A stretch of DNA of 64,000 bases from Spirochaetia bacterium (GTDB lineage Bacteria > Spirochaetota > Leptospiria > Leptospirales > Leptonemataceae), in assembly GCA_021413825.1 (NCBI GenBank), contig JAIOPQ010000015.1:1-64000 (forward strand). Direction: 5' to 3'. Both the position numbers and the translations under genes were made by a program. Under the pieces are notes generated by a model that was not told the DNA's origin, did not search any database, and worked only from the letters and a program-made list of their open reading frames with translations. Below are positions 60,901 through 64,000 of the stretch, in pieces. Positions within the stretch are counted from its first letter, which is position 1, and each line of letters starts with the position of its first letter.

Positions 60901-62369
60901 TTTTCTCAAGCGCACTATATTTCTTTTTCTTTACGGCGGTTTTTTTTATACATTGGGCAATCCTGCCCTTGCTCGTACCGGAGAAATATCTCCGCTCGGC
61001 CCGTCATGCGGCATTGCTCGTTGCTTCGTATGTTTTTTTTGCTTCTTATGAGTGGATCTTTAGCTTCCTTTTATTCTTCTTTACGATCACGGCATACGGA
61101 TCGGCCTTCTTCCTGACCCCTGGCGGACTGAAAGATCGCTATCGCAATTGGCTGCTGCTAGTTGTAATTTGCATACTTGTCGGCCTCCTCTGCTACTACA
61201 AGTATTACAACTTCTTCCTCGGGAACCTGCTTGAAGTTCTGGGATTCGTTGGGATCAAACCAGACTGGTTCATGCATACGATTGGTCTGCCCCTTGGAAT
61301 TTCGTTTTTTACATTTCAAGCATTGAGCTATGTCATCGATGTGTGGCGCGGCAAGACTGCTGTTGAAACTTCCTTCATGCGTTTCGGATTATTCAAATCG
61401 TTTTTCCCACAACTGGTTGCAGGCCCAATTGTAACCGCACGGGACTTTATCCCGCAGCTTTACAGTGATACGGATCTTACCGTTGAACGACTGCGCAACG
61501 GCGCGCGCTGGTTTGCACTGGGATATTTCAAGAAAGCAGTAATCGCAGATAACATCGGTCCAGCTGTAAGCGCAATGCTCGGTGATAAGGGCCAGTTTGG
61601 CACGCAGGGATCGTGGCTTGGTGCATTTGGTTTTGTTACTCAGATGTATGGAGATTTTTCAGGCTACAGTGATATGGCCTGGGGGTCTGCCATCTGGTTG
61701 GGGTTTCACCTTCCAGAGAACTTTAGAATGCCGCATATCGCGCGATCGATTTCTGAACACTGGCGCAGATGGCACATGTCACTCGGACGTTGGATCCGAG
61801 ACTATCTGTATATTTCCCTGGGCGGAAACCGAGTTAGCTGGTTTCGCCACAAAATCAATCTGGTAATCGCTATGCTCGTCAGTGGATTCTGGCACGGAGC
61901 AAACTGGACATTCGTCGTCTGGGGATTAATCTTTGGTGTCTGGCTCGCTGCAGAAACAATCTTCCAAGAATGGTATGACAAGCGTCCTAAACTTCCGGAC
62001 GGGCCCGTTATGCGAGTATTGCGCTGGCCATTTGAAGGTCTGCGCTGGTTCTACGCGATGATCTGCGTTACCACAATCCATGTTTTGTTCAGTTCACCTA
62101 CGGTGTCGTATGCGATCTTCAAGATGAAGTTGATGTATTTTTACGAAGCACCGAAAGTCCCGATCCCTCCAATGCTCTACAAGCCTATCCTCACATACTT
62201 TGCAATCATGATGGCTGGCGAATGGCTGGGTTATTGGATCTGGGAAAAAGGGAAATTCCAGATCAAGGTTCCCCTGTGGCTTGAGTTTGCCATCTACCCA
62301 TTCCTGGCGTTGCTGTTGATTCAATTGGCCGCTCCAGATGGGGGCGCTTTCATTTATTTCGTGTTTTAG
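60897..62369 (+). CDS. MBOAT family O-acyltransferase, second copy
   Basis: The 490-residue protein has about ten helices and the family marks: FPQLVAGPIVTARDFIPQL near 180, EHWRRWHMSLGRWIRDYLYISLGGNR near 290, and the catalytic His in SGFWHGANWTFVVWG near 345. The end is FIYFVF. It is a diverged paralogue of the gene at 54519. It is coupled to a CPBP protease upstream. Its stop lies six bp before an insertion sequence, so a partner hydrolase that often follows such genes may have been displaced. Confidence 0.94.
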   Translation: MIFSSALYFFFFTAVFFIHWAILPLLVPEKYLRSARHAALLVASYVFFASYEWIFSFLLFFFTITAYGSAFFLTPGGLKDRYRNWLLLVVICILVGLLCYYKYYNFFLGNLLEVLGFVGIKPDWFMHTIGLPLGISFFTFQALSYVIDVWRGKTAVETSFMRFGLFKSFFPQLVAGPIVTARDFIPQLYSDTDLTVERLRNGARWFALGYFKKAVIADNIGPAVSAMLGDKGQFGTQGSWLGAFGFVTQMYGDFSGYSDMAWGSAIWLGFHLPENFRMPHIARSISEHWRRWHMSLGRWIRDYLYISLGGNRVSWFRHKINLVIAMLVSGFWHGANWTFVVWGLIFGVWLAAETIFQEWYDKRPKLPDGPVMRVLRWPFEGLRWFYAMICVTTIHVLFSSPTVSYAIFKMKLMYFYEAPKVPIPPMLYKPILTYFAIMMAGEWLGYWIWEKGKFQIKVPLWLEFAIYPFLALLLIQLAAPDGGAFIYFVF

Positions 62370-62375
62370 CGTTCA

Positions 62376-62392
62376 CCCCCACATTCCCCAAA
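62376..62392 (+). repeat. Left terminal inverted repeat
   Basis: CCCCCACATTCCCCAAA is the exact reverse complement of 63372-63388. The base outside differs (A here, G in the mirrored right end), fixing the length at 17 bp. Confidence 0.92.
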
Positions 62393-62409
62393 GGTAACCC
62401 GGCACGCGC

Positions 62410-62427
62410 GCAGCGGCAAGCCGCTGC
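62410..62427 (+). promoter_or_regulatory. Hairpin ahead of the transposase start
   Basis: GCAGCGGC and GCCGCTGC form a perfect 8-bp stem with a two-base AA loop, six bases before the likely GTG start. Such structures in insertion sequences can stop outside promoters from driving transposase translation. A second 8-bp stem (CAGCGCTT at 62493 and AAGCGCTG at 62508) lies inside the coding region. Confidence 0.5.
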
Positions 62428-62432
62428 TTGTA

Positions 62433-64000
62433 GTGCCCCAAATCCTGGAATCCAGTGACGATCTCCAAAACACCAAATATATAAACGCGCGTCAGCGCTT
62501 CTCGCTAAAGCGCTGTCTTATTTGCAACTACCATGATTCCAGTACTTCCAATACTCCCCTTCATCATCTCAAGCTTCCACTCTGGGTGTTTTCATACCTT
62601 CTTGAAGATCAGATTCATAGATTTCCACAGGTATTGAATGCCCGCGAGATTCAAGAGCGTCTGGGGGTTTCAAAGAATACCGCCAGTCTTTTGAAACGCA
62701 GGCTTCAGGTGTTCCTGTCTGACCTTACACCTGCGATTAAAAATAAGATGGCTGGCGAATTGAAGCACAGAGGTGGATTACCGTCAGGCGATCTAACTGA
62801 TTTCACGCGGAAAACAGCTGTAGTTCACATTGATGGCCTGGCTTTATTTTCTGCCAGTCGACGTGCGAATGGTGGTCGTGCACGGATTAGGCATGGCGGA
62901 CAGACAGCCAGTGTTTACCTTACTGATGCCGTTGCGGAACAGAAGGGACGATACCAGATAGGGACGTTAATTCACACCATTGCTATTCCTGGCGGTCCTA
63001 TTCTTCTGGATTCCCTGCCGGGGTTTGGACAACGGTATGTTAGTCCTTTGCTTGAGTTTCTTCCTGCTGACGCCCCACTCTTCAGCGACGACGGTTACCC
63101 CTGGCTTTCACGTTACCGTCCCAATCATCGTTCAGTGAATCATTCTGCTCGTGGGAAAGACAAAAGGAACAGGTGGGCACGTCAGCGTTGGTGTCGGGAC
63201 GGTGTTAATAACAACTGTGCCGAGGGTAACCAGCGGGCATTAAAGCACGCCTTCCTTTCTGGTTATACTTACTTCAGTCCTGAATACTCTTCACTGTATG
63301 TTAGAGAGTATGCGGGACTCAAGGGAATCAGGGTGTATGGTCTTCAGGAATTGTTGGAAAATACATATGGGTTTGGGGAATGTGGGGGCAAGGCTTTGAC
63401 CGCTAGTGGTCCGCCGGGTAGAAAACACCAGCATGCATACCTGAGGGTCAGAATCCGTGAGTTACAGTATCTTCCACCTAAACCAAGCAGTCGATTCGGT
63501 CTGGATTACAGCAATTCACGAAAACAGATTCGTGGGAAGCTCCGAGACTTGTTGAATCAGAACGAATTCTTTTCAGCACGACAGGCACACACAGACTACC
63601 TTGATTTCTGGGAGGACGCCGAGCCCTACCGAAAGCAATTAGAGAAGAAATATAACGCAGTCGCGCGCGAGTTATGGTCACACCTGGAAAGGTGGGACGG
63701 TAAGCTATTAAGTAGATTAGCCGCAGACATCCAGGCACCGCATCGCCTGCTTCTCAGAATTGCCCGTCGCTGGAAGAAACTAGGAATTGCCAGAGTTGAC
63801 GAACAGTGGAATGCAAATGAACGCCGCATCTATTGCTACGTCAATCGCCTGACCCCTGTACTGCCTGAGTTCCTTTATTCTTTCGACATGGACCAATACC
63901 AGAATCAATCTGAAGCGGAACTCGAATCTATTCCTGCCATTGAAATTTCGAAATATGGAATAAGGAAAACAGAACGTGAAAAACTATTCAATGAGGTATT
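62433..64000 (+). CDS. IS1595-like DDE transposase frame continuing past the element; C-terminus beyond right edge
   Basis: A GTG frame at 62433 reads 522 codons to the window edge without a stop; it is open from 62370. Residues 20-50 look like half of the zinc ribbon (RCLICNYHDSSTSNTPLHHLKLPL, Cys28, Cys31). A helix-turn-helix follows (REIQERLGVSKNTASLLKRRL, 71-91). The DDE catalytic set is Asp134 (VHIDG), Asp220 (SDDGY, or Asp219) and Glu264 (NNCAEGNQRALKHAF). Residues 314-319 are coded by the right inverted repeat. After that, about 203 more residues of unknown type are fused in frame. No Shine-Dalgarno is seen. Confidence 0.75.
   Translation, partial: MPQILESSDDLQNTKYINARQRFSLKRCLICNYHDSSTSNTPLHHLKLPLWVFSYLLEDQIHRFPQVLNAREIQERLGVSKNTASLLKRRLQVFLSDLTPAIKNKMAGELKHRGGLPSGDLTDFTRKTAVVHIDGLALFSASRRANGGRARIRHGGQTASVYLTDAVAEQKGRYQIGTLIHTIAIPGGPILLDSLPGFGQRYVSPLLEFLPADAPLFSDDGYPWLSRYRPNHRSVNHSARGKDKRNRWARQRWCRDGVNNNCAEGNQRALKHAFLSGYTYFSPEYSSLYVREYAGLKGIRVYGLQELLENTYGFGECGGKALTASGPPGRKHQHAYLRVRIRELQYLPPKPSSRFGLDYSNSRKQIRGKLRDLLNQNEFFSARQAHTDYLDFWEDAEPYRKQLEKKYNAVARELWSHLERWDGKLLSRLAADIQAPHRLLLRIARRWKKLGIARVDEQWNANERRIYCYVNRLTPVLPEFLYSFDMDQYQNQSEAELESIPAIEISKYGIRKTEREKLFNEV
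63372..63388 (+). repeat. Right terminal inverted repeat
   Basis: TTTGGGGAATGTGGGGG mirrors 62376-62392 without a mismatch. It is read through in frame by the transposase as FGECGG-type residues. Confidence 0.92.
63389..64000 (+). other. Unknown reading frame downstream of the insertion sequence, in frame with the transposase
   Basis: The frame is free of stops for 612 bases and is rich in charged residues, with helix-like stretches (SRKQIRGKLRDLLNQNEFFS, LLSRLAADIQAPHRLLLRIA). The second resembles a winged-helix segment. No ATG appears in it until 63888, so the original N-terminus was probably lost or replaced by the element. I do not recognise it. It could be the interrupted or captured target gene, read as a fusion. 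Confidence 0.55.

Follow-up and report, generated by a model that had tools for sequence, protein, structure and literature searches.

The window analysed here is a stretch of 64,000 nucleotides from a Spirochaetia bacterium of the Leptonemataceae, and forms the first part of a longer contig (C97:1-64000). Towards its right edge a gene of the MBOAT family (membrane-bound O-acyltransferase, a putative name taken from a reading of the protein) is followed by a mobile element, whose features are given in Table 1. The DDE transposase frame of the element begins at a GTG codon and has no stop between two perfect inverted arms (17 of 17 positions complementary) or up to the window edge. The arms and the stop-free frame lie exactly where an earlier sequence-only reading of the window had placed them. 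Across the full ends of three elements the short terminal inverted repeats agree at 16-18 of 26 positions. The conserved D, D, and E codons, read from the sequence and an alignment, are at 62832, 63087, and 63222. The Pfam family DDE_Tnp_IS1595 matches the window transposase with an E-value of 1.1e-4 and 22.7 bits, below the cut-off of 27, and the NCBIfam IS1595 profile reaches at best 36.3 against a cut-off of 75, with an E-value of 5e-9 for a relative. These profile matches support a distant relative of IS1595, not a scored member of the family, and the IS1595-like label given earlier is kept in this weaker sense. No known RNA families were found in 62200-64000.

Table 1. Features of the insertion locus at the right edge of the window
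Feature	Position	Strand	Basis
Target gene, MBOAT-family, 490 aa	60897..62369	+	ORF; element starts at the next base after the stop codon
TGTTTTAG, left copy of the expected 8-bp target duplication	62362..62369	+	Analogy with TGTTTTAA (G005) and TGTTTTGA (G004)
Left long terminal direct repeat, 1025 bp	62370..63394	+	Ends by comparison with identical G005 repeat pairs
Left inverted-repeat arm, perfect 17 bp	62376..62392	+	Complementarity
Transposase frame	62433..64000, on to 64007	+	ORF, contig reading, and alignment
Possible antisense mimic of the MBOAT 3′ end, 20/24	62466..62490	-	Within chance alone; homologous to the strong G004:C45 mimic
Site of the 43-codon gap in the window copy, around the first zinc-ribbon CxxC, as judged against the C123 copy	62511..62512	+	Sequence comparison
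Right inverted-repeat arm, within the coding frame, codes ...FGECGG	63372..63388	-	Same layout in G004:C45 and G021:C55
Gene part beyond the repeat: end of the linker and winged-helix tail	63395..64000	+	Conservation, selection, structure model

The frame runs through the right arm, and read beyond 64000 it closes with a TGA at contig positions 64005-64007, for a protein of 524 aa in all. About 205 codons lie past the right inverted repeat, in line with the more than 200 reported earlier. The probability that 205 codons stay open by chance is about 2.4e-4 in a dinucleotide model of the window, or about 1 in 4000 trials, and a random frame is thus seldom that long, as the first reading had held. 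Length by itself is suggestive and homology decides: a chance-open frame is ruled out by the conservation of the tail and the selection on it, and the long reading frame across the repeat end is confirmed as real.

The tail has a winged-helix core at about 63621-63851, predicted with a pLDDT of 83-89 over tail residues 71-150. Fold matches of the tail model are winged-helix regulators, none of them strong, and the tail profile gave a single insignificant match against solved structures, a replication initiation protein (E 0.49). A diverged copy in the window genome, on contig C42, is 35% identical in an alignment that spans the catalytic part and the tail, and the gene after it, for an HNH-like protein of ~100 aa, also aligns with its window counterpart (E 3e-15). 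Matches are present in 12 of 22 genomes of the same family, several of them full length, and the tail profile, run on a sample of 393 genomes from the phylum, matches 10, which are all members of the same class. The alignment of 12 elements comprises a catalytic domain, a weakly conserved linker at the repeat end, and then the conserved tail. Between the window and contig C45 of genome G004, pN and pS are 0.136 and 0.790 in the tail and 0.135 and 0.674 in the catalytic part. Purifying selection is equal on either side of the right inverted repeat. The tail sits after a transposase in every relative with upstream sequence. No free-standing tail gene was found among the relatives, where tail-only frames start at or near contig edges, and one single-protein scan of viral contigs, a search sensitive only to close relatives, found no relative of the tail.

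These comparisons indicate that the tail is a native, old, and conserved C-terminal domain of the transposase, with a predicted winged helix, and not a recent fusion. The earlier proposal of a real transposase fusion was right in substance. Its alternative, a target gene whose 5′ part was replaced by the element, is ruled out, as is any other capture of a target gene as tail, by the homology of the tail across diverged elements and the absence of free-standing tails.

The unit of about 1 kb that was first taken for the whole element is one terminal repeat of an island of about 36 kb, which lies beyond what the window showed. By comparison with relatives, the unit extends 6 bp past the perfect arms at each end. 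Its first 141 bp (62371-62511) recur as a direct copy at contig positions 98652-98792, and the left repeat and this recurrence span an element of ~36.3 kb. Of the right repeat only these 141 bp are assembled, and the right target duplication is missing from the assembly. A complete and recent insertion of a 1-kb IS is ruled out, as the flanking 8-bp duplication is absent. The window copy is probably decayed, with 43 codons missing; since the break lies exactly 141 bp from 62371, this gap may be a deletion or a join error. A further window-type repeat in the same genome (G000:C123:1-490) is 94% identical over the alignable part and has an intact zinc ribbon, and is truncated after ~120 codons. 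The island (C97:64000-98651; L044, L045) contains a D5-type primase, an Upx-like protein, a type I specificity subunit, a RES-domain protein, and other defence-like genes.

Relatives share the general layout X-repeat-tail-HNH-like protein-ORFC-cargo-repeat-X, where X is the 8-bp target duplication. The terminal direct repeats are 1.0-1.65 kb long, and each has its own inverted ends and the part of the gene that encodes a zinc ribbon, a helix-turn-helix, and the DDE domain. Between them lie the winged-helix tail and the small HNH-derived protein (~100 aa), which form the fixed core, usually followed by ORFC and then by variable cargo. The HNH-like protein matches Pfam HNH weakly, and its HNH histidine is kept in about half of the members and lost in the window's group. 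ORFC, which is present in most elements, has no Pfam family and a poor structure model (pLDDT 57.8). Cargo across the elements includes a D5-type primase, Upx, a type I specificity protein, type III restriction-modification, and PDC-S06. A short tyrosine recombinase is found in five elements, at L044:15353-16027 and in equivalents in G005 C122, G005 C7, and two Turneriella parva elements, with a Phage_integrase match in both that were scanned; it is possibly a resolvase for the direct repeats.

In G005:C122 a long and a short copy of the repeat lie 25 kb apart in the same orientation and are identical over 1237 of 1237 bp. TGTTTTAA forms the 8 bp to the left of the long copy and the 8 bp to the right of the short one, and the frame of the right-hand copy ends as ...VTRLF* within this duplicated target. 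The repeat pair of G005:C7 is identical over 1064 of 1064 bp, with TAAACTAC as the outer 8-bp duplication. In T. parva (G076) the repeats 3716802-3718447 and 3756323-3757968 agree at 1645 of 1646 bp, differ at the first base alone, and have TTTTGCGA on both sides; the left frame, of 740 aa, runs on past the edge of its repeat, and the right one stops 28 nt outside its own. A second T. parva element has repeats that are 95.5% identical over 1112 bp and are flanked by TTTAGTAC, and in a third, whose right repeat is truncated, TACTCGAG stands at either side. Tandem insertions occur at one T. parva site, where TTTTGCGA flanks elements at 3682458, 3716794, and 3757969. The window genome also has a solo repeat of 1061 bp (G000:C73; L009, L056) with the duplication TAGACGAC, matching at 8 of 8 positions. 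This solo repeat is directly followed by the left end of a C42-type repeat. In G008:C9 and C23 (L047, L048) the left repeat end recurs past ORFC or cargo in inverted instead of direct orientation.

The full-length transposase frame is found at the left repeat only. Right-hand and solo repeats have no tail, and the stop of their frame is mostly supplied by the target; one exception is G007 (L029), which stops inside the repeat. The suggestion that the element uses a stop in its target is thus true of most of these other copies, and the window frame ends in its own tail. What the first reading named as a refutation, a stop at the same place in the other copies and a downstream gene with its own start and intact homologues free of the transposase part, was not seen. 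Repeat pairs are identical or near-identical within most elements and 35-80% identical between elements, which suggests that each insertion makes both copies from one.

Five relatives of the window element are found at MBOAT 3′ ends. In the G004 orthologue of the window MBOAT gene, 95% identical, a different member of the family (C82) is inserted at the corresponding base, and a G021 element and three G008 elements lie directly after the stops of relatives of this gene. The duplicated octamer has the form NGTTYTRR. Two insertion sites in T. parva lie at tRNA 3′ ends, one at tRNA-Val and one at tRNA-Leu. Orthologues of the window MBOAT gene in G005:C71 and G008:C15 end at or ~141 bp from contig ends, as if elements sat there. 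A tblastn search of the C46 flank genes gave no match to the G005:C122 flank, G005:C71, or the window MBOAT region.

Some repeats contain an antisense copy of their own target. In the repeat of G004:C45 (L043), the stretch 69-110 bp from the left end closely resembles, in antisense, 43 bp of the empty MBOAT site; the match spans the insertion point and scores 26.5 against null maxima of 12.5-17. The tRNA-Val elements of T. parva have antisense near-copies of the tRNA-Val 3′ end, one of which spans the empty site; such a mimic is located in G076 3756323-3757968 (L152:7847-7880). No mimic was found in C82, G005:C122, G005:C7, TpA, or TpB, and this speaks against a universal guide. That the antisense copy acts as a homing or guide determinant in some lineages is very doubtful.

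The directly supported parts, namely the frame, the homology and selection of the tail, the direct repeats, the duplications, and the target preference, are probably those of a large DDE transposon whose transposase gene straddles the edge of its terminal repeat, and of which a circle with one repeat inserts replicatively and duplicates that repeat. The mobile form would be a circle composed of one repeat and the internal region. The transposase would work on both ends of this single repeat, and the circle would enter its target by replicative, cointegrate-type transposition, so that the repeat and 8 bp of the target are duplicated in one step. Preferred sites would lie just past gene ends, at MBOAT 3′ ends for the window relatives and at tRNA 3′ ends in T. 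parva. Recombination between the repeats could free the circle again and leave a solo repeat behind, and the tail may take part in target or end recognition. In favour of this explanation are the conservation of the tail and the selection on it, the repeat pairs with their outer duplications, the solo repeat of the window genome, the tandem insertions in T. parva with the duplication between them, and the circles reported for IS1595 relatives. Other observations stand against it. The two ends of G004:C45 share 141 bp and the contig holds one repeat, as expected of a circle, but this overlap equals the k-mer size of the assembler and the right repeat end of C45 also joins a chromosomal flank. 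Repeats a and b of T. parva share only 79% identity, the recurring end in G008 is inverted, the second repeat of the window element is visible over just 141 bp, the window transposase lacks part of its zinc ribbon, and about half of the members have lost the HNH histidine.

The same anatomy and outer duplications would be expected of an ordinary composite (pseudo-compound) transposon, in which two autonomous, directly repeated IS1595-like copies move as a linear unit by their outer ends and the tail is an addition to the left copy. A transposon of this kind is known for ISApl4, an IS1595-family member (PMC12561309). This alternative is nevertheless unlikely. The tail, the HNH-like protein, and usually ORFC are kept beside the left copy across widely diverged elements, and the pairs are identical within elements that differ strongly, while two independent copies would drift apart. 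A linear composite that moves by its outer ends would not itself keep its repeats identical.

Solo copies with duplications, and frames that read out of their ends, are also consistent with an independent 1-kb IS that ends wherever its target offers a stop, the long copy being a chance in-frame insertion beside a tail gene. The right edge of the window unit has no 8-bp duplication, and diverged elements share a homologous, in-frame tail of which no free-standing homologue was found, which makes this explanation highly improbable. An assembly artefact of metagenome bins is the least credible source of the direct repeats. Several junctions in G000 and G004 do coincide with 141-bp k-mer overlaps, and 'k141' appears in the contig titles of two genomes. 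However, the 4,384,015-bp contig attributed to the T. parva type strain contains this anatomy too, complete with duplications and 1645 identical bases, and so do single contigs of G005.

The closest known systems are IS1595 pseudo-compound transposons and, for architecture, KolobokP. The IS1595 family, including MTnSag1, tISCpe8, and Tn7560 of ISApl4, resembles the elements described here in its related DDE domain, short inverted ends, and 8-bp duplications. Both circular forms and 8-bp duplications are reported for relatives of IS1595 (PMC5704250; PMC12561309), which would by analogy supply the transposition chemistry. Tn7560 of ISApl4 is a pseudo-compound transposon with directly repeated ISs around cargo (PMC12561309); two direct copies around cargo are also seen in relatives of the window element, and in the window element itself 141 bp of the second copy are visible. 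In contrast to the IS1595 family, the transposase here has 520-740 aa, the winged-helix tail is coded outside the repeat, and most repeats are stop-free. A conserved HNH-like partner, sites at gene ends and tRNA ends, and profile scores below the cut-offs are further differences.

KolobokP elements are animal DNA transposons with long terminal direct repeats that have their own inverted ends, and they also occur as solo repeats and multimers (PMC9587614). Their transposase is described in the internal region, their repeats are ~450 or 660 bp, and a strong target preference is absent (PMC9587614). The likeness is one of architecture, not kinship, and the multimers here are tandem insertions at one site. 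KolobokP is marked by a Kolobok-superfamily transposase and an I-PpoI-type His-Cys box nuclease; the transposase of the present elements matches IS1595 profiles, and their small protein matches Pfam HNH weakly. The present elements differ in their bacterial host, in a transposase that crosses the repeat edge, and in the frequent loss of the HNH histidine.

Tn7-like elements insert just past the stop codon of a conserved gene or at tRNA genes, and carry defence cargo. The gene-end sites and defence cargo are alike here, whereas the duplication is 8 bp instead of 5 bp and the terminal repeats are direct. A Pfam scan of the largest genes in the window element detected no TnsB, TnsC, or TniQ. In IS26-type translocatable units, a circle with one IS inserts to give directly repeated ISs, and IS26 carries its complete transposase gene inside the IS. 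The outcome of a one-IS circle, inferred for the present elements, would be shared, but the transposase family differs. IS26-type units and cointegrates are mentioned in PMC12561309 and PMC9587614.

No description of a bacterial element with a transposase gene that crosses its own terminal-repeat edge was found in the open-access literature. A tentative reading, somewhat less likely than its opposite, is that these elements form a self-sustaining bacterial class of LTR-like DNA transposons, in which the one-repeat circle is the heritable unit and insertion splits the gene into a full-length left and a truncated right form. If true, this split would be a built-in switch that limits onward movement. 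Bacterial composite transposons are usually viewed as chance pairs of ISs around cargo; the composite layout here looks inherited. A complete transposase needs DNA of both the terminal repeat and the internal region, and the gene itself therefore binds repeat to cargo. This tie suggests how the element could stay whole even though the terminal repeat can exist alone. The family joins a DDE enzyme, a preference for gene-end and tRNA-end sites, and defence cargo, and the presence of members in the cultured, free-living spirochete T. parva makes the model directly testable.
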